Positions 1-47,479 of a stretch of 47,903 bases of DNA are shown piece by piece. Below the pieces are notes generated by a model. The model made no database searches and was not told where the DNA came from. It was given only the letters and a program-made list of their open reading frames with translations. A program made the position numbers and the translations under genes. Each line of letters opens with the position of its first letter. Positions within the stretch are counted from its first letter, which is position 1. The DNA comes from Desulfobacterales bacterium (lineage in GTDB: Bacteria; Desulfobacterota; Desulfobacteria; Desulfobacterales; JAIPEE01): NCBI GenBank assembly GCA_021737275.1, contig JAIPEE010000032.1, forward strand, positions 1 through 47,903, in the 5' to 3' direction.

Positions 1-137
1 AGTACGCCGAAATTAAATAAAAAATACGCGCCTCGCGCCCGTAGGAAGTACTCTTGGGGTGCATATGGAGCTTTTCACCCTAACTACCGGGCATAAATAC
101 TTAGCCATCCTAGGTTTGAGGTTTTTACGAGTTTATC
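1..137. repeat. MITE-like element, copy A (cut by window start)
   Basis: This is the 3' part of a miniature element whose other copies lie at 9867-10042, 18603-18757 and 42555-42752. It ends with TTTTTACGAGTTTATC, the same terminus as the 18603 copy. Read on the minus strand it carries a 22-bp module (TTTATGCCCGGTAGTTAGGG followed by TG) at the second of the two sites where copies differ, and none at the first. It also holds about 26 bp, found in no other copy here, between CATATGC and GAGGCGCG. The left terminus lies outside the window, so target duplication cannot be tested. It lies downstream of the 3' end of pilY1. Confidence 0.8.
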
Positions 138-311: not shown

Positions 312-3300
312 TCAATCACGATACTCCTTCCACTTGGAGCGCCCGGTGGTAAAGTCCTTAACCGGCAAATTGTCCTGATTGATCTCTTTGATCTCACCGG
401 TACTGGTCTGGACAAATGCCTTTGTTCCATCACCATCCTCATCTCCTGACCCGACATGGAGATTCGGGGTGGTAGCCATACCCCTTCCAAGGGTCAGCTT
501 ATTCTTGACATTGCCACTGGGATCAATACCAAAGATATCTTCATACCATGATGTTCCGGTCTTGTAATACACAGCATAGAGGTAGGCGCTGCCTTCTGCC
601 TCGCACACGCCGCTGTTTGGCTGATACGTGGTAAAGGTGACAAGCCCGCCAAGGAGGGTGGCCTGGCCGACATTCTTTTCCCGGTTTTCATAGGGCCAGA
701 AATCCTTGTACCAGCCATCCGTGCAGTTATTTTTATAGTTTTTGTCATTATAATCCGAACCTGAACAAGTGGGCAGTTCCGTACAGTTATTGTTTATGCA
801 CCTGCCTGTTCCAGCGATATACTTCTCCATCTTGTCGAAATAGGGGAGATCCAGTTTACTGCCTGGGGGCAGAATCTCGCCGGAAGCATACCAGGGCATA
901 CAACCATAGCCAGCGATGGGGGCTCGCTCACCGTCAGAGTTCACATCAATTGTTTCTCCACATTCCAGGGCCGCATTTTCTTTATCGGTACCCAGCGGCA
1001 CCAGGATTTCATCTACCTTAACCAACCCTTTTTCTCCGGGATCATTACCGGCAGTATCAAACAACTCCACTTCATGCCATAGCAGCTTCCTCTTTCTGTT
1101 TGCTCCATCATCTACAATTTCCATGGGTTCCTTCAAGCCATAGTAGCTCTGCTGTTGATGATCAGTCTTGTCCTCCGGGGAGAAAAAACGGCCGGTGCCG
1201 AAATAAATCCAGAAGTTATAGCCATCGGTACCCACAGAGGCTGCGGCAGTTACCGGCTGTAATGGATGCCCGGCAATTTGAGGTCTAACCCCATTAGGGT
1301 AAGTACCAAAGTCAACAGTGGTGCTGGAACCAAGGTTAAGCAGTGTATTCACCCTCCAGCTATCTGGTGTCGTAACCGGGTCTCCACCGGCTTTACCGAC
1401 AATGTGCCCACCGGGTTCCATGACCAGCCGATACATATGGCCGCCACCACTCCAGTAAGTTGTGCCATCAGGATAGGTACCGAAGCCCACATTTCCAAAC
1501 CTGTCCACCTCTCCTTCCACGGTACCGAAATAGACCGCATCTGACTTATACTCTTGGTAGCTGGGGTTAATATCATAATCAACGGTTATCATATCAGAGA
1601 CAAATGATCTGATTTGAGCCCCTGACGGGGCATAGGTTCCACCAGGATTACCAGCCGTGGGAACACCGGCAGGAATGCGCAGCGGGGTACCATTAGTCAG
1701 CCACTTAAGAGGCAAGACACTGATTTTGGAGCCCTGGTCACTCATGCCCTTCATGGCATCACTGCTGCTGGAATTGGCATCATGGGGCCCGCTTCCCAGG
1801 ATCAGATACCACTCATTGGTATCATCACTGGTATCAACCGGATCCACACCGTTATCTTTAATGATAGCCATTGTCGGAATCACTGAAGAGTAACCGAGAT
1901 CGACAGTGCCGGTACCGGTTTTTTGAGTCAACTCACCAAGAAGTACAGGCGGTTCCTCTGGATTGGTGATATCGAGGATGAAATAGGAGGAGATGAACTC
2001 TCTGGTATCTGTCGCATCACCAGAAAGTTCACTTGCCAGTATTGGTGAACCGCCATAGCGCATACCGCCAACCAGAATGGTTCCCCAGCCGTTGGTATGG
2101 ACATCGTCAGGTGGAAAAATCTGCACATCAAAAATCCTCGGCCGTTGATCGACGAAATATTTGTGGATATAATTCGGGTCAGTGAGACACTTGAGATGTG
2201 GGTGCAGATTATAAGGGACATAGGCCCACATTTCCTTGCCCAGAGGAGGCCCATTATCATTATAACCGTTGGCTAAATTACGATCATAGCCAAGGTAGAA
2301 TTTGTTATTCACATCATTGTAAAAGCCACCATTAACCGCATGGAGCATGCCGTCATTGGCACCAAAATAGACCATGTGGCGGCGTTCTTTCCACCTACTG
2401 AGAAACTCGGCATAGGAATAATCATTGTAGATGAGATGGTAGCCTTCAGCCGGGGCGGCCACGGTCATGGGGGTTGAATGGATAATATCCCCCAGGCGCC
2501 AGGTTGTAGAGTACGTATTGGCAGGGATGTCAGGATCATTCAGTAAGGACTGCCTGCTGCGCATTGCGGCATCAAGCTGCCCATTTCCATTGGTATCCTC
2601 ATCGGCATCAAGGCTACCGTTACCATTAACATCCTCAGCCTCAAGATCTTTTCCACGCATCCACCTGATAATCTTATCCACTTCTTTGGTGTTTGCGACA
2701 TCAAAATCCGACGGGTTAAGAGCAGGCCCACCGTCTGCATCGGCCTCAAAATCAACGGTTTCGCCAATATCAACCACGCCGTCATTATTACTATCCTTCC
2801 AGGTAAAAATATACCTGTGTCGATCGATGGCTGCGGTGAAATCAGCGGAACTGACGGCAGACCTGTTTGTCGCAGTCTGCAGAACGTCAGCGGCAGCAGG
2901 AATAACCGGATAGTCGGACAACCACTGGCTGGCAGACCAGAGGAAGTGCACTTGCTCCAGGTCAGTGACGTTGTTGCATCCAGCAGTATACCCTGCTCCC
3001 GTTGTTTCTATAGGAAAAACAGAGGTGTTCCAGCATGCCCGTGTTTTTTCCTCTCCGGGTGTATTGTCAAAGAAGATAATGACCCGCTTGTCGTGGCCAT
3101 CAATTACCCCATTATTATTCAAATCTTCATACTTGGTGTCAAAATGGCCATCATCATCCAGATCTTCACCGGGGAGATCAAAAACACCATTTCCGTTCAA
3201 GTCCTCGGTGAGGTCAAGTTCACCGTCATTATCACCGGCCTCATCCTCGCCAGGGTCCATGACACCATTACAATTAGTATCCTCACCGCAATCAAGATGA

Positions 3301-6300
3301 TTATCACCGTCAAGATCCTCTGATGGCTCCAGCTGACGGTTGCCATCGGTATCCTCGTACATAAAGCCGTTTTCATCGAGAAAGAGTCCGTGGACATCAC
3401 CTGCCCAGGCTACTTTTGTTTCATTCACTCCCGTTCCTCTGACCATTTCCGGCCAGAAGATGGCCTGATAGATAGCGCCTTCACCACCACGGGCCGAGGA
3501 AATAACAGAAGCAGCGGAACCGGCAGAAGACCTGTTCCTGAGCTCGTTGATGACAAGGAGTAATTGAGCTTCAAGTGCCGCAGGATTTTCTCCTCTCAAT
3601 GCTGTTTCAAAACCGCCTCCATTGGCAGCAGCACTGTCCATTAAAAGAGCCGGATTACATTCAGCAGGGTCACCAACTGCTGTTGAAACATTACGCAGTG
3701 CGCCGGCAGTGACAATATAAGTGGTTAGATTTTTCTTGGGTTTCAGACCAAAAGGAGCGTCCGCTTCGGGCAGGCCCGCGTTACCGGCAGGATAGACGGT
3801 AAACTCATTATGTTCATCGTAAGCAAAATAGACAAGATCATCCATATAGGTACTGCCCAGGAGGCCGCCTGTACACTGGTCTGCCACGAGATCATCCGCT
3901 GTCCCCTCACCATCATCAATAGGAACAGTATTAAAATTGCCGGCAAAAGTGGCATCTCCCCGTGCAAAGGCTTCGACCTTCGGATTAATATCAGCGGTTG
4001 AAGCACCCTCGCTGATGATCAGGATAGAGTTCGCCTGGCAGTGGTTGACAACCGGGTCAATAAAAAAGTCCCAACTCAACACAGCATCATACAGGGGTCC
4101 GCTCAGACCCAAAATGTTTGCTTCAGCCTTTAACGTCGACACACCTCCGGCAAGGGTCTGATAGAGTTTTCCACCATGGCTGACAATATCGTTGTCATTA
4201 TATACTGTACCATCACTCCAGGCTCCCCGGTAGGAAGCGACTGCGGTCCAGTTTACTCCGTTATCAGTGAGCAAGGCCCCCCCATCGGAGTAGCCGCCCT
4301 TGAGAGTCCGATAAAGTGATCCCCCTTCCAAGAGATAGGAATCCGGTCCATAGTAATAGTTGTTCTGCCACCCGGCGGTGACATCGCTGTCGGTCTGAAA
4401 ATCCCCTATATTGAGGCGCACATCAGTGTTTTGGGTGTAGTAGCCAAGGGCATTATAAACGGCCTCGGCAACCGGTGTCCATGATGTGGCACGGACATCA
4501 TTGACCGCATCAACCAGCTCAGCAACATGCAGCCTGCCGGTCTCAGTCGTCTGGCTGCCAAGTCTGATCCGGGAGATAACCTGTGCTCCGTCACGGTTGG
4601 TTCCGGGACAGTATTTCTCCATCATGGTTGTTGTGGTACCGACCGCACATTCCGTCTCTGCCCCGACACCGTTAAATGCCATGGCGCCGATACGTAGATC
4701 GGAGGCAGTGTTCTGTAAGATCCCGACAGGAGGGGTTGTTCGCAATCGCAATGCGGTCCCCTTCATCACGTTCATGGGGACATCAACTCCAAGCTGGTTA
4801 AGCATACCGGAATCAATCAGCAGGGCCGGGATATTCCCGTAATCACCGGAAGTGGATGTCTCCTGATCGGTGGGATCAATAACCTCTGGAATATTCAAAT
4901 CGTTGCAGTAGTCTTCCATGGCCTTTTGTGTACAATAGGCTCCCTCGTCGGATACCACCAGAGCACCGATTTTCTGCGGTGTATTAAAAGGCAGCGTTGC
5001 CGGCAGGAGCGCCGTATCATCTGCCGTGAACCCCGGGACCCCGTCAAGGTCATTAGAAAATTCGGCACCAGTTCCACCACCACCTGCACTGTAGATTGCA
5101 TCCGTGGGGTCACACTGCTCCCCAGAAAGGGAGTCAACTTCAAAATCTTTCCATTTTGCTGTATTTTTACATCCTTTGCTTATGTCCAAAGCGTCTTTCC
5201 ACTCAAAACAAACCTGCGTGTAGGCTTCGCCACTGTCGTTTTTCAGCAGGTGTACAGTACCTCCAGGAGCTGTATAAGAATACTCGCACGGATCGCCGAC
5301 ACATTTTGTCAGGTCTTTTGAGCGGGGATCACAGGTTGCCCCGGCCGCTGATGAGCCGAGAGACCAGCATCGCCCGACATAGCCGACCCGGTCGACATTA
5401 TAGAGACGATTATTATCAAAAATTCCGTAACAGTGATAGGCATTGGACCAGTTGGCAATATCGCTGGGATCCATTGCCTGGTAAACCTCATAACAGTCGG
5501 CAAGGGCTTGAGTGACGAGATTCGAATTTTCAAGATCGCTTATATTCTGCCAGCAATCCTGCATGGCATGATTCAAGGCATTACGGGGATCAGCCGCTGA
5601 GTTAGTGGCCCCAAGACAGGTGTCAATCTCATTCTGCGCACCATTTATCCCATGGGTAAGGATCTTATCAACGGCGGCCTGGCAGGCGCCCGCACTATAT
5701 CCGGTGGCGGAAACGGCCAACACTTCAATTCTTGTGGTATCATCCACCCCGTCAATCCTGTCTTTTTTGAAGGGGTCCCCATCCGTTCGTGGCCCACGCA
5801 CTGCGAGGGTCAGAAAGCCCGCCCCCCCATCCAGTGCAACCTGCTTGACAAAGCGCGAACCTGAACAGCCCCGGTTTTCAGAAACTATCCGTTCGGCACC
5901 CGCATAATATTTGCCGCCGGTGAGAATACTCTTCTGGATATCGAACTTGGATGCCGTGAGCCAGTTGAGAAAATTGCCACTGACACCAAAGGCAGTGGTC
6001 CGGGTCGGCTTCACTCCTAATGGATCTGTGTAGAGAGTAATACAAATACCATCGCTGGTATACTTGGTATTTCCCGCCGCAGCTGCCGCCGTGGTACATG
6101 CTGCCTGGGCATCGGTCGCCGAGACTTCTTCATAATACCCCTCATCTATGCGAAGCCAGTTGGCTGCAAAATCCGTTTCATAGAGAGTGTCTCCGCTAGA
6201 TGTGTGACCAAGCAGGGCCTCAAAGATCATGCCCTCATAGGTGACAATATCACCAACGACATAAGCCGTCCCGGTCTGCCATCCAAAGGGATCGATCTCC

Positions 6301-7079
6301 ATCCAGGCCACACCTTTATCGGTCCATGGCTTGGTTCCACTTGCAGTGCCGCCACTCATAGCTTGATAATGGACATCTTCCCACTGGACCAAGTCTCCTG
6401 CGGAATAGACCGTTCCATTCACCCAGGTTTTAACGATTTGCCAGTCCGAAATACCGGTATCAGTATCCAAGTCATCCCCGGCAGCAGTGCCGCCACCAGC
6501 GGTATAGTATGAGTAGCCATCGATGGGGTTGTAGATAAAACTTTTTGGATGGAACACTTTACCAGCCTTCCAGATAGGGCGGGTTATGGGATTCCATTCA
6601 ACCTGTTCGTCGTCATAGATATTTGCACCGGATGAGGCAACGCCGGTAACGGTTAAGGCCTCGTATACCAGACCATTGGCGTATACCTTATCGCCGACAC
6701 TGTAGACCTTCTGCTCCCATAACGGCTGGACATCCACCCATTTGTACCAGGCTTCGATGAGTGATGGGGGGGTGTTGCCATCCTCCTTATAGGACTGAAA
6801 AGAACCGGCATACATGGTGTACGGATCGGTATTCAAATCAAGCGGGACATAGTTGTCGTCAAAACAGTTCGTGGCAGCATTGACATAGGCTGTATCCAGC
6901 ATACTTCCTGAATTGTCAAGCAGCATCAGCAGGTTGGACTTAACCCCAAAGGCAAGAAATGGTGGTTCAGAGTTTCCCCTGCTGCAGACATCGCTGGCAA
7001 TTGCCATGCCTGGCAACGTGGTTAAAATCACACCCATCAGCAAAATGTTCAGGAAAGAATAGTGCATATAATTTTTCAT
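312..7079 (-). CDS. pilY1: PilY1-type pilus tip/adhesin protein with inserted binding modules
   Basis: Large type IV pilus tip protein, about 2,255 residues, roughly twice the length of Pseudomonas PilY1. The chosen ATG at 7079 follows GGTGGGTG and opens a typical signal peptide (hydrophobic core, then MAIAS); the frame stays open upstream to a TTG at 7184 without a good ribosome site. A von Willebrand A domain begins with the metal site DNSGSM at about residues 55-60. Within it are three repeats of a W...Y..GD.V...G..Y.A pattern (about 120-164, 217-262, 266-311), and two related ones near 905-985, resembling CBM5/12 chitin-binding modules. Two acidic DxNxDG clusters (about 1240-1335 and 1430-1505) look like dockerin/EF-hand calcium loops. 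The C-terminal PilY1 propeller includes YFGANDGMLHAVNGG near 1570. Last gene of the minor-pilin operon. Confidence 0.93.
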   Translation of the reverse strand: MKNYMHYSFLNILLMGVILTTLPGMAIASDVCSRGNSEPPFLAFGVKSNLLMLLDNSGSMLDTAYVNAATNCFDDNYVPLDLNTDPYTMYAGSFQSYKEDGNTPPSLIEAWYKWVDVQPLWEQKVYSVGDKVYANGLVYEALTVTGVASSGANIYDDEQVEWNPITRPIWKAGKVFHPKSFIYNPIDGYSYYTAGGGTAAGDDLDTDTGISDWQIVKTWVNGTVYSAGDLVQWEDVHYQAMSGGTASGTKPWTDKGVAWMEIDPFGWQTGTAYVVGDIVTYEGMIFEALLGHTSSGDTLYETDFAANWLRIDEGYYEEVSATDAQAACTTAAAAAGNTKYTSDGICITLYTDPLGVKPTRTTAFGVSGNFLNWLTASKFDIQKSILTGGKYYAGAERIVSENRGCSGSRFVKQVALDGGAGFLTLAVRGPRTDGDPFKKDRIDGVDDTTRIEVLAVSATGYSAGACQAAVDKILTHGINGAQNEIDTCLGATNSAADPRNALNHAMQDCWQNISDLENSNLVTQALADCYEVYQAMDPSDIANWSNAYHCYGIFDNNRLYNVDRVGYVGRCWSLGSSAAGATCDPRSKDLTKCVGDPCEYSYTAPGGTVHLLKNDSGEAYTQVCFEWKDALDISKGCKNTAKWKDFEVDSLSGEQCDPTDAIYSAGGGGTGAEFSNDLDGVPGFTADDTALLPATLPFNTPQKIGALVVSDEGAYCTQKAMEDYCNDLNIPEVIDPTDQETSTSGDYGNIPALLIDSGMLNQLGVDVPMNVMKGTALRLRTTPPVGILQNTASDLRIGAMAFNGVGAETECAVGTTTTMMEKYCPGTNRDGAQVISRIRLGSQTTETGRLHVAELVDAVNDVRATSWTPVAEAVYNALGYYTQNTDVRLNIGDFQTDSDVTAGWQNNYYYGPDSYLLEGGSLYRTLKGGYSDGGALLTDNGVNWTAVASYRGAWSDGTVYNDNDIVSHGGKLYQTLAGGVSTLKAEANILGLSGPLYDAVLSWDFFIDPVVNHCQANSILIISEGASTADINPKVEAFARGDATFAGNFNTVPIDDGEGTADDLVADQCTGGLLGSTYMDDLVYFAYDEHNEFTVYPAGNAGLPEADAPFGLKPKKNLTTYIVTAGALRNVSTAVGDPAECNPALLMDSAAANGGGFETALRGENPAALEAQLLLVINELRNRSSAGSAASVISSARGGEGAIYQAIFWPEMVRGTGVNETKVAWAGDVHGLFLDENGFMYEDTDGNRQLEPSEDLDGDNHLDCGEDTNCNGVMDPGEDEAGDNDGELDLTEDLNGNGVFDLPGEDLDDDGHFDTKYEDLNNNGVIDGHDKRVIIFFDNTPGEEKTRACWNTSVFPIETTGAGYTAGCNNVTDLEQVHFLWSASQWLSDYPVIPAAADVLQTATNRSAVSSADFTAAIDRHRYIFTWKDSNNDGVVDIGETVDFEADADGGPALNPSDFDVANTKEVDKIIRWMRGKDLEAEDVNGNGSLDADEDTNGNGQLDAAMRSRQSLLNDPDIPANTYSTTWRLGDIIHSTPMTVAAPAEGYHLIYNDYSYAEFLSRWKERRHMVYFGANDGMLHAVNGGFYNDVNNKFYLGYDRNLANGYNDNGPPLGKEMWAYVPYNLHPHLKCLTDPNYIHKYFVDQRPRIFDVQIFPPDDVHTNGWGTILVGGMRYGGSPILASELSGDATDTREFISSYFILDITNPEEPPVLLGELTQKTGTGTVDLGYSSVIPTMAIIKDNGVDPVDTSDDTNEWYLILGSGPHDANSSSSDAMKGMSDQGSKISVLPLKWLTNGTPLRIPAGVPTAGNPGGTYAPSGAQIRSFVSDMITVDYDINPSYQEYKSDAVYFGTVEGEVDRFGNVGFGTYPDGTTYWSGGGHMYRLVMEPGGHIVGKAGGDPVTTPDSWRVNTLLNLGSSTTVDFGTYPNGVRPQIAGHPLQPVTAAASVGTDGYNFWIYFGTGRFFSPEDKTDHQQQSYYGLKEPMEIVDDGANRKRKLLWHEVELFDTAGNDPGEKGLVKVDEILVPLGTDKENAALECGETIDVNSDGERAPIAGYGCMPWYASGEILPPGSKLDLPYFDKMEKYIAGTGRCINNNCTELPTCSGSDYNDKNYKNNCTDGWYKDFWPYENREKNVGQATLLGGLVTFTTYQPNSGVCEAEGSAYLYAVYYKTGTSWYEDIFGIDPSGNVKNKLTLGRGMATTPNLHVGSGDEDGDGTKAFVQTSTGEIKEINQDNLPVKDFTTGRSKWKEYRD

Positions 7080-7180
7080 ATCACCCACCTTTGTAAGATT
7101 TCCAACCCCATTGATCCTTTGCTTGTTGCTCATATTTTTATCGTTCATTGCGTTACTGATTATAATATTTTTTTTGTCAA

Positions 7181-7807
7181 TCAATCGTAGTTGCAGCCAC
7201 CCTCAGTACCAACCAGATGCCGCCAGCCGAAAAGGATAATGGATTCACTATTTGATAATCCATTAAACTGGGAGTAGATGTTGACTATCTTTCCAACCCC
7301 GCCCTGTCCGGCTGCCTTTCCCTTTCCTTCATAACCGGCTGCCATCTGCAGGGCGCCACCGGGCAGCATTTGTGTTTCACCGCCCACATAGAGATGACCC
7401 ACGTCTATCCCGGAGGCGATGTTGGCGATGGGAAATGCGACGTCGGCTGTAGCGATATTGCCAATATCTGTCGGAGCCTCATTATCCTGCAAAAGAAGGT
7501 TACCATTCCTCTCATATACCCGCACAAGGGTGCCGCTAAGATCGGCTGCATTCTCAGGATCATTGTTTTTATTAAACCCTGTTGGACAATTAAAGGACTG
7601 TTCCACAATTTCAGTACCAAGAACGGCCCCGGCCTCTGCCTCGTAAAAGGTTTTTTTATGGATCTTATCATTCCCGGCAATCTGGAGTTCGATGGAGGTG
7701 TTTGTCGTGGTCGCTATGCCGATAATCGTGAGAACCAGCATGATCAAAAGGGAAGTGATAAGGATAAATCCCTTTTCATTTTCCATATGTTTTGGTTGTA
7801 TTTCCAT
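7181..7807 (-). CDS. pilX: Minor pilin PilX
   Basis: Minor pilin, 208 residues. The short leader ends ENEKG before FILITSLLIMLVLTIIGIA, the class III signal and hydrophobic helix of a type IV pilin. GNDKIHKKTFYEAEAG fits the PilX N-terminal family, in which the Phe-Tyr-Glu-Ala-Glu stretch is conserved. In Pseudomonas, PilX primes pilus assembly with PilV, PilW and FimU and carries PilY1. The ATG at 7807 follows GCGGAAC, directly after the pilV stop (13-base gap). An internal ATG seven codons later lacks a ribosome site. About 100 bases separate it from the chosen pilY1 start. Confidence 0.88.
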   Translation of the reverse strand: MEIQPKHMENEKGFILITSLLIMLVLTIIGIATTTNTSIELQIAGNDKIHKKTFYEAEAGAVLGTEIVEQSFNCPTGFNKNNDPENAADLSGTLVRVYERNGNLLLQDNEAPTDIGNIATADVAFPIANIASGIDVGHLYVGGETQMLPGGALQMAAGYEGKGKAAGQGGVGKIVNIYSQFNGLSNSESIILFGWRHLVGTEGGCNYD

Positions 7808-9866: not shown

Positions 9867-10042
9867 GATAAACTCGTATTTATGCCCGTAGTTTGGGTGA
9901 AAACTTCGATTTCCGATGGATAAGTAAAAAGCTTCATATTGGAGGCGTGCAATTTTTCTATCATTTCGGCGTACATACGGTACGTCGTAATGATAGAAAA
10001 ATTGTAACAACGAACAAGATGAAGAATTTTTACGACGCCATC
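9867..10042 (+). repeat. MITE-like element, copy D (176 bp)
   Basis: Complete miniature element with ends GATAAACTCGTA and TACGACGCCATC. It carries the 21-bp module TTTATGCCCGTAGTTTGGGTG at the first variable site and none at the second; its length is exactly the 155-bp copy plus 21. The central arms TTTTTCTATCATTTCGGCGT and ACGTCGTAATGATAGAAAAA form a long hairpin whose sequence differs from the other copies on both arms at once. Flanking bases CAACTTT and AAAGTTG are inverted rather than directly repeated, so no clean target duplication is seen. Confidence 0.85.
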
Positions 10043-17318: not shown

Positions 17319-17882
17319 ATGAACTCACTATTTTCAGGACTCATAACTTCCAAGACTCGCATTAAGATCTTAATGCGCCTCTTCCTCAATCCAGACAGGA
17401 ACGCTTACCTGCGTGAACTTGCTGACGAATTCCATGCATCTCCCAGTCATATCAAAGAAGAACTAGACCAACTCAAAAATGCAGACCTGCTGATAAGTAG
17501 AAAAAATGGACGCCAAGTGTTATTTTCCGCTAACCAAAAGCATCCTGTTTTCCATGAGCTCCACTCTATGGTTCAGAAGGCTTTGGGAATGGATCGCATC
17601 CTAGAATCAATGATTGAAAGGATCGGTAATCTTGAAAAGGCACTACTCATTGATGATTATGCAGAAGGCAAAGATACCGGCATCATAGATCTGATATTAA
17701 TAGGGAACATAGACAAAGACAACCTGCAGGACCTTACCAACAAGACTGAAAAATATATTGATCGTAAAATAAGAACATTGTCATTAACTGCTGATGAGTT
17801 TAAAAAATTGGCACCCAATCTTGATCAACGGCCTCAGTTTGTACTTTGGCAGCGCGAGCCAAAACTGCACTATGAAACTTAA
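17319..17882 (+). CDS. Winged-helix regulator with nucleotidyltransferase-like domain
   Basis: 187 residues. Residues 1-75 form a winged helix: SKTRIKILMRLFLNPDRNAY, LRELADEFHASPSHIKEELD, then LLISRKNGRQVLFSANQKHP. Residues 105-170 resemble a minimal nucleotidyltransferase fold (TGIIDLILIGNID, then a helix, IDRKIRTLSLTADEF), but the catalytic Gly-Ser and the paired Asp residues are degenerate, so activity is doubtful. Such proteins often head polysaccharide loci in deltaproteobacteria and related phyla, and a regulatory role over the downstream locus is likely. Stop overlaps the next gene's start by 11 bases. Confidence 0.75.
   Translation: MNSLFSGLITSKTRIKILMRLFLNPDRNAYLRELADEFHASPSHIKEELDQLKNADLLISRKNGRQVLFSANQKHPVFHELHSMVQKALGMDRILESMIERIGNLEKALLIDDYAEGKDTGIIDLILIGNIDKDNLQDLTNKTEKYIDRKIRTLSLTADEFKKLAPNLDQRPQFVLWQREPKLHYET
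17635..17783 (+). repeat. Near-identical 149-bp direct repeat, copy 1
   Basis: Matches 19621-19769 with four differences in 149 bases, while the sequence on either side is clearly diverged. Both copies encode the same part of the nucleotidyltransferase-like domain in the same frame, 1,986 bases apart. Three of the differences are silent and one changes Ile to Val. A recent gene-conversion tract between the two regulator copies is the simplest explanation. Confidence 0.85.
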
Positions 17883-18602
17883 TCATCTCCTACAGTCACA
17901 GGAAGGAAAACGTCTTGAATTCAAACGAGACATCTCCTCTCCTGTAAATATCATGAAAACCTTGATTGCCTTTGCCAATACTGCAGGTGGTATCATGCTT
18001 ATTGGTGTTGAGGATAACCACACTGTCATTGGCGTACCCGGCAATCCTCTGGATGAAGAAGAACGACTTAGCAATATGATCGCCGACGCCATAGCTCCCC
18101 GCCTAATTCCCAACATTGAACTGATTCCAAGCAATGATCTCACTTTACTCGCAGTTGAAGTATTTCCCAGCCAATTACGTCCGCACTATCTGAAACAAAA
18201 AGGTGAACAACAAGGTGTATTTATCCGTTTAGGTTCCACCAACCGCCAAGCCGATGTACCTTTGGTTGAAGAGCTGAAAAGAACCGTAGCAGGCAAAGGT
18301 TTTGATGAACTCCCCTTAATGGAAGCTGATGCAGCTGATATTGATTTCCAGTTGCTGACAGAGGCATTCAAAACAGTTCGCAGACTGGCAAAAAATGACA
18401 TGGAAAAGCTGAGACTACTTACCCGTGTACAAGGAAAACTGGTGCCAACAGTTGGCGGAATGCTCTTATTTGGTAAGCGACGAGATCATTTTTTCCCGGA
18501 TGCATGGATACAGTGCGGCCGCTTTATTGGCACAGAAAAAGTTGACATTTTTGATCATATCGATATCAATGTTCCCTTACCCATGGCGGTTAATGAAATT
18601 AT

Positions 18603-18757
18603 GATGGCGTCGTAAAAACTCTCCATCTGCTTCGTTGCTGCATTTTTTATTTAATTTCGGCGTACTAAGGTACGTCGAAATTAAATAAAAAATACGCGCC
18701 TCGCATATGGAGCTTTTTACTTAGCCATCCTAGGTTTGAGGTTTTTACGAGTTTATC
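18603..18757 (-). repeat. MITE-like element, copy B (155 bp, shortest form)
   Basis: Complete element with ends GATGGCGTCGTAAAAAC and GTTTTTACGAGTTTATC, flanked by the direct repeat AAATTAT (18596-18602 and 18758-18764). It lacks the 21/22-bp module at both variable sites. Inner arms TTTTTTATTTAATTTCGGCG and CGTCGAAATTAAATAAAAAA form a hairpin with a single wobble. Orientation is opposite to the copies at 9867 and 42555. The insertion disrupts the ATPase gene. Confidence 0.92.
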
Positions 18758-19245
18758 AAATTATGCTTTTTCTGAAAAAACACGCCATGCGGGGTGCCGA
18801 TTTTTCAGAAATAAGACGAAAAGACGTCTGGAGTATCCCCCTGAATATTCTTCGTGAAGCCATTATTAATGCTATTGTTCACGCCGACTACTCGCAGCGA
18901 GGTGCACCAATCAGGATAGTATTTCTTGATGATCGCATTGAAATTGAGAATCCTGGTATACTCTTACCCGGACTAACAATTGAAGACATGAAACAGGGGA
19001 TGTCTAAAATCAGGAATCATGTCATTGCCCGCCTGTTTCGAGAGCTTGATCTTATTGAACAGTGGGGAACCGGAGTCCGCAGAATATTCGAAGGAGCAAA
19101 ACAACTTCGGCTGCCCGAACCTGAAATTACTGAAATCGGTATGCGTGTACGCATGACAATCTACCTTGCCGATACTATACAGCTTGAGCAAATCAAACAT
19201 CTTGGGGATCAAGAAGCCCACGAGTTTGCCGCCCCAGACAATGAG

Positions 19246-19290
19246 GGAGTAAATGCGGGAGTAAATGCGGGAGTAAATGAGGGAGTAAAT
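19246..19290 (+). repeat. 12-bp tandem repeats inside the ATPase gene
   Basis: GGAGTAAATGCG or GGAGTAAATGAG occurs 3.75 times in a row, coding for a Gly-Val-Asn-Ala/Glu linker between the ATPase-like part and the C-terminal winged helix. The unit is a multiple of three, so changes in copy number alter linker length without frameshift. Confidence 0.85.
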
Positions 19291-19466
19291 AATTTATTTG
19301 CTCTTATAAAAGCAAACCCCGGAAAAAGAGCCCCTTTCTTTTCACAGCGACTAGGTACTTCAGTGAAAAATATCGAACGTTGGCTTAAACAACTAAAGGA
19401 TAGAGAAGAAATTGAATTTCGTGGGGCACCAAAAACAGGTGGCTATTTTGTACGACAGGACAACAA

Positions 19467-19880
19467 ATGAGCACCATAGCCCTGTATTTACCAAAAAGAA
19501 TCCCCGTTTCCTCTGCCCACCAAAAACACCATGTCTTCAATGAACTCCACTCCATGGTCAAAAAAGCTCTTGGTATGGATAGTATTCTGGAATCGATGAT
19601 AAAACGACTCGGCAATTTGGAAAAGGCACTACTCATTGATGATTATGCAGAAGGCAAAGATACCGGCATCATAGATCTGGTATTAATAGGGAACATAGAC
19701 AAAGACAACCTACAGGACCTTACCAACAAGACTGAAAAATATATTGACCGTAAAATCAGAACATTGTCACTAACCACTGATGAATATAACCGCCTGTCAA
19801 CAAACCTTGAAAAACGTCCGCACTTTGTACTCTGGAAACAGTCAGAAAACAGTGGTGACACAACAAGCAGTCGTACTTGA
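19467..19880 (+). CDS. Truncated second copy of the nucleotidyltransferase-like regulator
   Basis: 137 residues. From about residue 17 it parallels the regulator at 17319 (QKHHVFNELHSMVKKALGMD; DDYAEGKDTGIIDLVLIGNI), but the winged-helix part is missing and replaced by 16 unrelated residues (STIALYLPKRIPVSS). It starts by ATGA overlap with the broken ATPase gene. Without a DNA-binding domain it cannot act as the full-length protein does; it could dimerise with it or simply be a decaying duplicate. Confidence 0.65.
   Translation: MSTIALYLPKRIPVSSAHQKHHVFNELHSMVKKALGMDSILESMIKRLGNLEKALLIDDYAEGKDTGIIDLVLIGNIDKDNLQDLTNKTEKYIDRKIRTLSLTTDEYNRLSTNLEKRPHFVLWKQSENSGDTTSSRT
19621..19769 (+). repeat. 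Near-identical 149-bp direct repeat, copy 2
   Basis: Second copy of the tract at 17635-17783, 145 of 149 bases identical. Downstream of it the two genes diverge quickly. Confidence 0.85.
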
Positions 19881-40649: not shown

Positions 40650-40661
40650 TAGGTTAATTTT

Positions 40662-42548
40662 GATAACTTCGTAAAAACTATTTTCAGCACAACATCTTAA
40701 TTTTACGTAATAAAACCGAAATTACTCGTTGCCGAAAAACTTATTTTATGTTAATATTATCTCGTAATTTCAAATAAATACGAGGGAATAAATGTTTCAT
40801 GTAAAAAACCACAAACAGCTTAACATTTTCGATCCCTGGGGCCATCTGGGGCCTAAGAGACGAAAACTTCTCGCTCAGTCATGGTCGGGGCTATTCCAGG
40901 AGAAAATTCTCACCGAAATGCCGGTGGAGACCCTGCGCAGCCACTACCACGAATGGAATGGTCGTCCCACCAAGGAACTCTATTCCATGATGGGACTGAT
41001 GGTTCTCCAACAGATGCATGATTTCACCGACGACCAAGCTGTGGAACAGTTTTGTTTTAACATCCAGTGGCACTATGCCCTCAATATTACCAACGCCTCT
41101 GATGCGGCCTCCTACATCAGTCATAAATCTCTCTGGACCATGCGTGACTTCATGTCCACAGATGAGACATATAATGAAATATTTGATAACGCACTGCAAA
41201 CATTAGCCAAGCTCTTCAAGGCCGACCTGTCCAAGCAGCGCATGGACTCCGTGCATGTGAAATCCAATATGCGCAATCTCGGCCGTATCGGGCTGTTCGC
41301 AAGAACCATCAAAAAATTCCTGGTCAACCTGAAACGTCAGTATCGTAGTCTCTTTGATCAACTTGACGATAGCCTGACGAGGCGTTATCTCGGCAAAAAA
41401 GAAGGATCTCTTTTCGCCATGGTCAAGCCTTCAGAGTCAAGCAGGACTCTTGATCAACTCGCTGAGGATGTATTTATCCTGACCCAACATTTTGGTTCAA
41501 AAACATCCATCCACGACATGAGCAGCTTTAAGCTGCTGGTTCGGCTTTTCAAGGAACAGTGCATCGTCGCAGACGATACAACAGGTTCCGCCGAACCAAA
41601 GGCCGTCGCCCGACCAAATAAAGATGTGCCTTCCGATTCTCTGCAAAATCCCTCTGATCCGGATGCCGGTTACAGCAGCCATAAAGGACAGGGTTATCAA
41701 GTGCAGGTCGTTGAGAATTACACTGAAGGTGACGATAAACAGCTTTCCCTGATTACCCATGTTGCCGTTGAATCAGCGGACCGGCACGATGCCGGCAGCC
41801 TGCTGCCTGCCTTGGCAAAACTTAAGCAGCGCGAGATGGCTCCGGAGCAGATCCTCGCTGATTCGCTCTATGGCAGCGACAGCAATTGCGAGCAAGCACA
41901 AAAGGAGCATGACGTTACCGTGATTGCCCCGGCTATGCCCGGCAATCAGAAGAAAATGCACCTTGCTGATTTTACCATCAACGACCAGGGCTGGATTACT
42001 TCCTGTCCTCAAGGTTCTGCCCCGATCAGGGTGAAAAAAATATCAACTGGCTTCAGTGCATCCTTTACACCAAGTGTTTGCTCCAAATGCCCTCTGTTTA
42101 AACAATGCCCCGTCTGCAAAGGGAAGAAGGCCTATTACATCCGTTATAAACACAAAGATATTCGCCTTGCCCACCGCAGACGCATTGAGTCCACAGCCTC
42201 ATTCAAGGACAAATACAGATTCAGGGCTGGAGTCGAGGCGACCATGTCTGAATTCGACCGGCGAACGGGTGTCAAGCACCTTCGGGTACGCGGCATGAAA
42301 GCTGTATGTTTTGCCGCGGTGATGAAGGCCATAGGTGTCAACATTTTCAGGGCCAGTCGGCACAGAAAGTGGCAAATCGACCCATTGATACCACAATGTG
42401 GTGCTTTTTTGACCGTCTTGGCTGTCTGCTGCCTTATCAAAGAGCAATTCAAGCGACGTTTACAAAAACACATCGCATTTTATATAAACTTTCAGCCGAA
42501 TCGGTTGAATCGGTTGAAAATGGCTTTTTAGCTTTTTACGATGCCATC
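40662..42548 (+). mobile_element. IS1182-like insertion sequence
   Basis: 1,887 bp, flanked by direct repeats AATTTT (40656-40661 and 42549-42554). Left end GATAACTTCGTAAAAAC; right end, read inward, GATGGCATCGTAAAAAG: 13-14 of the outer 16 bases match. It carries one transposase gene. The termini match those of the four miniature elements (GATGGCGTCGTAAAAAC and GATAAACTCGTA). It lies in tandem with one such element and splits a minus-strand glycan operon. The family call rests on the transposase. Confidence 0.85.
40792..42531 (+). CDS. DDE transposase, IS1182-like
   Basis: 579 residues, ATG after GAGGGA. N-terminal DUF772-type domain (HYHEWNGRPTKELYSMMGLM; FNIQWHYALNIT). Candidate catalytic residues: Asp in MDSVHVKSNM, Asp in ILADSLYGSDSN, and Glu in EATMSEFDRRTGVKHLRVRG. 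A cysteine cluster (CSKCPLFKQCPVCKGKK) lies between. Full length for the family and without frameshift, so probably active. GC content is higher than the surrounding glycan genes. Confidence 0.9.
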   Translation: MFHVKNHKQLNIFDPWGHLGPKRRKLLAQSWSGLFQEKILTEMPVETLRSHYHEWNGRPTKELYSMMGLMVLQQMHDFTDDQAVEQFCFNIQWHYALNITNASDAASYISHKSLWTMRDFMSTDETYNEIFDNALQTLAKLFKADLSKQRMDSVHVKSNMRNLGRIGLFARTIKKFLVNLKRQYRSLFDQLDDSLTRRYLGKKEGSLFAMVKPSESSRTLDQLAEDVFILTQHFGSKTSIHDMSSFKLLVRLFKEQCIVADDTTGSAEPKAVARPNKDVPSDSLQNPSDPDAGYSSHKGQGYQVQVVENYTEGDDKQLSLITHVAVESADRHDAGSLLPALAKLKQREMAPEQILADSLYGSDSNCEQAQKEHDVTVIAPAMPGNQKKMHLADFTINDQGWITSCPQGSAPIRVKKISTGFSASFTPSVCSKCPLFKQCPVCKGKKAYYIRYKHKDIRLAHRRRIESTASFKDKYRFRAGVEATMSEFDRRTGVKHLRVRGMKAVCFAAVMKAIGVNIFRASRHRKWQIDPLIPQCGAFLTVLAVCCLIKEQFKRRLQKHIAFYINFQPNRLNRLKMAF

Positions 42549-42554
42549 AATTTT

Positions 42555-42752
42555 GATAAACTCGTATTTATGCCCGTAGTTTGGGTGAAAACCTCAAATC
42601 TAGGATGGCTAAGTATTTATGCCCGGTAGTTAGGGTGAAAAGCTCCATATGCGAGGCGCGTATTTTTTATTTAATTTCGGCGTACTAAGGTACATCGAAA
42701 TTAAATAAAAAATGCAGCAACGAAGCAGATGGAGAGTTTTTACGACGCCATC
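42555..42752 (+). repeat. MITE-like element, copy C (198 bp, longest complete form)
   Basis: Complete element with AATTTT on both sides (42549-42554, shared with the IS, and 42753-42758). It carries modules at both variable sites: TTTATGCCCGTAGTTTGGGTG (21) and TTTATGCCCGGTAGTTAGGG plus TG (22). Its length is exactly the 155-bp copy plus 43. The central hairpin arms are as in copy B except for single changes. The same orientation as the copy at 9867. Confidence 0.92.
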
Positions 42753-42778
42753 AATTTTAACAAATAAAGGAAACGAAC

Positions 42779-46126: not shown

Positions 46127-47479
46127 TTAAACAGGTTTCGCCCTGGCAATCATCTCCCCAAGCTCATCGGCCATGGTCTGAATCATTTTTTCATCCTCCC
46201 CCTCAACCATCACCCGAATCACGGGTTCTGTTCCGGAGGGGCGCACCAAGATACGACCTTTTTTCCCTAACTTTTTCTCCATTTTGGTGACAGTTTTTTG
46301 GAAATCGGGAACAAGATCAAGATCGATTTTTCCGGCAGTGCGGACATTTTTCAGCACTTGTGGATACGATTCCATTATTTTTACAAGCTCAGACAATGAT
46401 TTTTCCCGTTGTCTCATAATTCCAAGGAGACGGAGGGCCGCCAAGTTGCCGTCGCCGGTGGTGATATAATCAAGAAAGACCAGATGCCCGGACTGCTCCC
46501 CGCCAAAGGAGTAGCCTTTTTTTCGCATCTCCTCCACCACGTAGCGGTCTCCCACCTGGGTACGGACCATCTTGCCGCCCATCTTCTCCATGGCTATTTC
46601 CAGCCCCATATTGGACATGACTGTGGTGACAAGGGTCTTCTTTTTTAACTTCCTCCTTTTCATGAGGTCCCTGGCACAGACAGCCATAATATGATCACCG
46701 CCCACCACCTGCCCTTTTTCATCGCAGACAATCAAGCGGTCTCCGTCACCATCCAGTGCCAACCCGACATCGGCGCCGGTCTCTTTGACCTTGGCAGCCA
46801 TCAGCTCAGGATGCAACGCCCCGCATTTGCAGTTGATATTCTTTCCGTCAGGATTTACGCCAAGGGTTGTCACCTTGGCACCGAGCTCTTCAAACACATG
46901 GGGGGCAACACCATAGGTTGCACCATTGGCGCAATCCAGTACAATGTGCATACCATCAAGGCTCTGCTTTTTCGGGAAGATATTTTTTAAAAATACAATA
47001 TATCTCCCCTTGGCATCATCAATCCGTTTTGCCCTTCCCACTTCCTCTGCAACTGGACGTAATGTTGCCATTTTCTGGGAAAAGATCAGATCTTCAATAT
47101 CAGCCTCAAGCTTATCCGGCAGCTTAAACCCATCATGGGAAAAAATCTTGATCCCGTTATCCTGAAATGGATTATGGGAGGCGGAGATGACGACACCTGC
47201 ATCGGCCCGCATGGATGTTGTAATAAAGGCAATCCCCGGTGTGGGCAGCGGCCCCACCAACAACACATCCACACCCATGGAGCAGATTCCGGCAGCCAGA
47301 GCATTTTCTAACATATAGCCGGACAGCCTGGTGTCCTTGCCAATTACAATACGATGGCGGCCATTTCTGCTCTTTACAATGAAGGCAATGGCGCGCCCAA
47401 CCTGCATGGCGATCTCGGTGGTCATGGGGTAAATATTTGCCACCCCGCGGATCCCGTCTGTTCCAAATAACTTTCTCAT
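46127..47479 (-). CDS. glmM: Phosphoglucosamine mutase GlmM
   Basis: 450 residues. [11 protein letters not shown] at the N terminus, phospho-Ser101 in [16 protein letters not shown], the metal site [11 protein letters not shown] and the phosphate-binding [14 protein letters not shown]: all GlmM signatures, full length. Converts GlcN-6-P to GlcN-1-P on the way to UDP-GlcNAc, hence to peptidoglycan, LPS and the WecB product. It lies after cdaR, a conserved arrangement (cdaA-cdaR-glmM), and marks the core-genome edge of the glycan locus. Confidence 0.95.

Follow-up and report, generated by a model that had tools for sequence, protein, structure and literature searches.

Miniature elements share ends and target type with an IS1182-like insertion sequence subgroup in Desulfobacterota

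Short elements without a transposase gene recur in a contig that also holds a complete insertion sequence (IS), and one of them lies directly beside this IS. Which transposase moves them? We addressed this question in the window, a stretch of 47,903 nucleotides that is the entire contig C90 of assembly G000, and in other genomes that carry related elements. Our results indicate that the short elements, all below 500 bp, are probably miniature elements (MITEs) whose ends are recognised by transposases of an IS1182-like subgroup, like that of the resident IS, a reading to which we assign a probability of roughly 0.8.

The resident IS (40662..42548, forward strand) is complete, measures 1887 bp and starts with GATAACTTCGTAAAAA (40662-40677), its right end reading inward as GATGGCATCGTAAAAA (42548-42533). 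It contains one ORF between imperfect inverted ends and thus fits the IS1182 family, whose members are about 1.3-2 kb long, with a single ORF and inverted ends. This ORF (40792..42531, forward strand) is an intact frame for a DDE transposase of 579 aa with profile matches to NF033551, PF13751, PF01609 and PF05598. PF05598 (DUF772), PF01609 (DDE_Tnp_1) and PF13751 all score above their gathering thresholds. The IS1182 profile NF033551 yields 152.3 bits, under the curated cut-off of 270, which relatives in four other genomes (G009, G013, G025 and G054) also fail to reach, and because of this score we speak of an IS1182-like subgroup and not of a full family member. In an alignment of the transposase with four relatives of 45-48% identity, D152, D357 and E482 are unchanged within conserved blocks, and we infer that they form the catalytic triad.

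A scan of named genomes yielded 80 loci with relatives of the IS. The nearest belongs to an uncultured Desulfocapsa (71%), followed by relatives in a Candidatus Thiosymbion MAG contig (68%), Desulfocapsa GMC10 MAGs (61-67%), Desulfobulbaceae UBA2276 (66%) and Desulfobulbus alkaliphilus (65%). Ends of the type GATGGnCTCGTAAAAAgtc are kept on both sides at about 50 of these loci, where most elements are 1.87-1.93 kb long, and the length and ends of the resident IS agree with theirs. On plasmids, the transposase search returned only relatives below 60% identity, the best at 35%. A different IS1182-like IS, with ends AGTATCYGCTGAATTTC, is abundant in genome G048, where 18 copies of its 462-aa protein are listed on contig C1.

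Four MITE copies are present in the window. The copy at 42555..42752 (forward strand, 198 bp) carries two hairpin insertions of 21-22 bp and adjoins the right end of the IS, that at 9867..10042 (forward strand, 176 bp) carries one insertion of 21 bp, and that at 18603..18757 (reverse strand, 155 bp) has the canonical length. The fourth (1..137, reverse strand) is a left part truncated by the contig end, and the same 137 bp also terminate contig C53. Across the assembly, contigs C9, C53, C70 and C90 harbour five complete MITEs (window 42555, 9867 and 18603, C70:4348 and C9:5102), three cut ones and several degenerate ones. Sizes range from 155 to 203 bp in this assembly, while 74 copies from many genomes are mostly 145-161 bp long. 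Over shared columns, six copies within contigs are 93-100% identical, which suggests a recent spread; those at 9867 and C9:5102 are more divergent (77-82%). The MITE at 18603 lies within and disrupts a gene with SLFN_AlbA_2 and HATPase_c_4 domains (17794..19470, forward strand) and is flanked by the target duplication AAATTAT (18596-18602 and 18758-18764). Joining its flanks, minus one AAATTAT, restores a single frame of 504 aa that is free of internal stops. A further element of 63 bp on C53 (L066 8697-8759) has a hairpin insertion and two MITE-type ends in opposed orientation, and is possibly a minimal MITE derivative.

The sequence-only reading had pointed out that these copies and the IS have the same ends, and its coordinates and matches proved correct, save for the left ends at 9867 and 42555. 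The MITE left end is GATAAACTCGTAAAAA (at 137 and 18757, both on the reverse strand) and differs from that of the IS at two of 16 bases; the right end is GATGGCGTCGTAAAAA (at 18603, and on the reverse strand at 10042 and 42752), with the single difference in the outer 16 bases that had been claimed. The match is polar, left with left and right with right, and the identity is confined to the outer 16-17 bp. At 9867 and 42555, the left-end match holds through base 12, beyond which a 21-bp hairpin, TTTATGCCCGTAGTTTGGGTG, splits the end between GTA and AAAA. The end pattern occurs eight times in the window against 1.54 expected, a number reached in none of 100 shuffles, and for a similar pattern the 4.26-Mb assembly contains 12 exact matches, compared to none for the reversed control. 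Eleven of these 12 matches fall in C9, C53, C70 and the window. G000 encodes one transposase of the resident type only. The weaker IS1182-like matches in this assembly (C7, C30, C32 and C63) were rejected as MITE partners by their non-matching ends, and a search of G000 for other paired elements with these ends found none. A literature search for the IS and MITE end sequences yielded no relevant paper.

Both kinds of element also have the same target signature. Exact target duplications of at least 6 bp flank 28 of the 47 IS copies with both flanks available (shuffled pairs: mean 1.8, maximum 6 in 2000) and 50 of the 74 MITE copies (shuffles: mean 1.4, maximum 7). Of the MITE duplications, 37 are 6 bp, 12 are 7 bp and one is 8 bp long. 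The target type A(A)NN(T)T is common to both sets, and the right flank begins with A at every IS (47/47) and every MITE (74/74).

The two elements are moreover found in tandem. In the window, AATTTT lies to the left of the IS (40656..40661), between the IS right end and the MITE left end (42549..42554) and to the right of the MITE (42753..42758), so that IS and MITE have one target copy between them. Comparable arrangements exist at other loci, among them AAATCTT-MITE-AAATCTT-IS (L169) and IS-AAATTT-MITE (L176), and in genome G142 two MITEs stand in tandem with AGCGTT common to both. At L148, the nearest relative of the IS stands directly beside a MITE that misses approximately its first 11 bp. 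Leaving out this locus and the window junction, where the MITE end carries an insertion, we counted related ends at target distance on five of 95 IS sides, whereas the background rate predicts 0.29. In nearly every junction observed, the left end of the MITE is the one attached. These tandems likely arise when an existing target duplication is reused as a new target.

Taken together, these observations are consistent with a scheme in which a transposase of the subgroup would bind the outer 16 bp or so of an element (GATrrnnTCGTAAAAA) and then excise or copy it. Insertion would follow at a target rich in A+T and of the type A(A)NN(T)T, with duplication of 6-7 bp, and neighbouring target duplications could be reused to form IS/MITE tandems with one common target copy, as at 40656-42758. 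Binding, catalysis and target reuse are deduced here from sequence comparison, as is the mover, which would be some transposase of the subgroup and perhaps another copy than the resident one.

The distribution of the MITEs complicates this picture. Among 194 sampled genomes of the order to which the Desulfocapsa relative belongs, 74 contain the MITE and 20 a transposase match: both occur in 10, the MITE alone in 64, the transposase alone in 10 and neither in 110. The MITE is thus present in 10 of 20 genomes with the transposase and in 64 of 174 without it (Fisher p=0.33; p=0.22 for strong matches only). Desulfocapsa MAGs have 33-48 MITE matches, and candidate MITEs are very numerous in some genomes that are devoid of a transposase match, such as G233 with 431 first-look candidates, only 4 of which were scored. 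No match to the MITE was obtained on plasmids and phages. The sequence-only reading had named miniature copies in genomes lacking such a transposase as evidence against itself. They are indeed the majority where the resident transposase is meant (64 of 74), but the objection does not extend to the type of ends and target. Loss of the IS after the MITEs had spread, or gaps in draft assemblies, could explain these genomes. The MITE family is older and wider than the resident transposase and is mostly found without it.

The internal structure of the MITE sets it apart from the IS as well. Its interior of about 120 bp has no visible resemblance to the resident IS, and the MITE is therefore no simple deletion derivative of it. 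Comparison of 31 copies from two orders, in which the interior is alignable, revealed a constant layout: the outer left end is followed after about 12 bp by an inner end-like repeat (GATGGCTAAGTAAAAA) that lacks TCG, then by a stem, a hairpin around GGCGTAC...GTACG and finally the right end. The outer left end is evidently the functional one, because the duplications lie outside it. In the consensus fold, 94.2% of cells are paired and 14 of 33 pairs are changed on both sides; the covariation score is 0.263, compared with 0.129 for shuffled alignments and no more than 0.095 when the structure is slid. This supports a conserved, covarying hairpin, which may be kept up by selection or by palindrome maintenance.

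Additional modules were observed within this layout. In the window, the hairpin insertions lie in the left end of the MITEs at 42555 (TTTATGCCCGTAGTTTGGGTG, 42567..42587, forward strand) and 9867 (21 bp, 9879..9899, forward strand) and, with 22 bp, in the inner end-like repeat of the former (TTTATGCCCGGTAGTTAGGGTG, 42616..42637, forward strand). Such hairpins of 21-22 bp (TTTATnCCC...GGGTG) precisely separate GTA from AAAA, be it in the left, the inner or the right end-like repeat. Further sites are window 76-97, L065 6022, and L067 3855 and 4388, and insertions of this kind were met solely in contigs of G000. A second module, ACCCCAAGAGTACTTCCTACGGGC, sits within the MITE stem, and a similar one, ACCACAAGGGCATTTCCTGCGGGC, in a MITE from another order; the sites of this observation are L067 4424, L066 17608, window ~37-61 (reverse strand) and L109 1623. 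An Rfam search of the window gave no match.

How else could the shared ends be explained? Coincidence is scarcely conceivable: brief as the common stretch is, both ends agree in a polar manner, as does the target signature, and the same ends recur at some 50 IS loci besides the 12 matches in the assembly. It is also unlikely that the MITEs are immobile today and kept as structured repeats, for example as terminators or as nucleoid or regulatory sites, their ends being relics. The compensatory changes in the hairpin and an interior that is alignable over two orders fit such a role. However, recombination or replication upkeep of palindromes also yields paired changes, and exact target duplications at many copies, the disrupted gene and the group of nearly identical copies in this contig set all argue for mobility.

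We also regard it as quite improbable that a different, unseen transposase with convergent or ancestral ends mainly moves the MITEs, and that the IS ends are alike by descent only. The 64 MITE-bearing genomes without a detectable homologue agree with this possibility, as do five Desulfobacterales genomes (G015, G022, G033, G036 and G048) that have MITE ends and no transposase match. In G142, with contigs of up to 950 kb, MITEs with intact target duplications likewise stand without a transposase match. Yet a search through 1.58 Mb of this genome for an alternative autonomous element, recognisable by paired ends and target duplication, found none. The abundant IS of G048 was rejected as a partner, its ends being quite unlike those of the resident IS and the MITEs. 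The identical target signature and the shared-target tandems with the resident IS subgroup speak against a separate mover as well, and multi-copy IS are frequently dropped from MAG assemblies. Recognition by IS1182-like subgroup transposases remains our preferred reading, against which stand the non-significant co-occurrence of MITE and transposase, the MITEs of G142, the interior that is unlike the IS and the restriction of the match to the outer 16-17 bp.

A broader reading is tentative, and we consider it possible with the odds against it. The MITEs could form an ancient, order-wide lineage of their own design, combining a functional outer left end, a further end-like repeat located 28 bp inwards and the covarying hairpin, whose anchors are the inner repeat and the right end. 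Such a lineage would have outlived its original partner and been amplified by passing IS1182-like transposases, and its double left end would favour insertion next to related ends. If true, amplification may have reached hundreds of copies in some genomes.

The sequence-only reading had gone further and held that the MITEs are moved by this very transposase. Shared ends, target type and duplication length, the shared-target tandems and the presence of a lone such transposase in the assembly favour this claim, while the many MITE genomes without a match, an interior not derived from the IS and a probable misbinning of the contig weaken it. It is plausible that the resident transposase itself was their mover. 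As to the origin of the window, its phosphomannomutase (46127-47479) shares 87% identity with that of Desulfocapsa MAGs and at most 56% with those of the same-order genomes searched, and a second phosphomannomutase of the assembly, on C50, is 49% identical to the window copy. For a protein on C53, identity reaches 88% with Desulfocapsa and no more than 72-73% within the assembly's order, and C9, C53, C70 and C90 are modestly closer to each other in tetranucleotide use than to the rest. The window is thus probably a misbinned, Desulfocapsa-like contig, and C9, C53 and C70 are probably misbinned too; G000 would then not be the true host genome, which weakens the assembly-wide argument on mobilisation. 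The window also encodes a 2290-aa protein with CBM_5_12 and PilY1-type domains (312-7184, reverse strand), adjoined by small ORFs on the same strand.

Pairing of MITEs with an IS1182-family IS is already known from Methanosarcina acetivorans, where ISMac2 has MITEs of 160 and 169 bp, and new MITEs resemble their partner chiefly in the inverted repeats (PMC3852290). The elements described here are likewise short and paired with an IS of this type. They differ from those of the archaeal host, which have inverted repeats of 25-26 bp and direct repeats of 4 or 0, in their 16-bp ends, A...T duplications of 6-7 bp and occurrence in Desulfobacterota orders. By description, they also resemble Chunjie, a bacterial MITE of Geobacter uraniireducens that is of comparable size (178-235 bp), is present in many copies and has conserved terminal and direct repeats (reviewed in PMC10969869). 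The present MITE family is best read as new, and its double left end and covarying hairpin are an unusual conserved architecture. Our analysis defines ends and target for a divergent subgroup of IS1182-like elements in Desulfobacterota, to which it connects a MITE family found in more than one third of the sampled genomes from the order of the closest relative. Such repeats disrupt genes and are a probable cause of breaks in assemblies.

IS1272, an IS1182 relative, presumably belongs to the same broad transposase group as the resident IS. In Staphylococcus aureus, it is reported to replace target inverted repeats without target duplication, and a tandem duplication of its 25-bp left end has been reported (PMC5678879). 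The latter recalls the double left end of the MITE. Unlike IS1272, the present subgroup mostly duplicates 6-7 bp, and this contrast, together with the shared-target tandems, means that target choice in this group of transposases can be put to the test. Insertion into palindromes as a general rule, an idea prompted by two loci, was discarded, since inverted flanks are rare (three of 122 elements against 1.55 expected) and not significantly above chance. The two loci remain anecdotes: the MITE at 9867 has inverted flanks (CAACTTT / AAAGTTG) in place of a direct target duplication, and in an Omnitrophota MAG (L207, ~5187-6806) an IS of the subgroup sits centrally in a perfect 14-bp inverted repeat, reminiscent of the repeat-replacing mode of IS1272.
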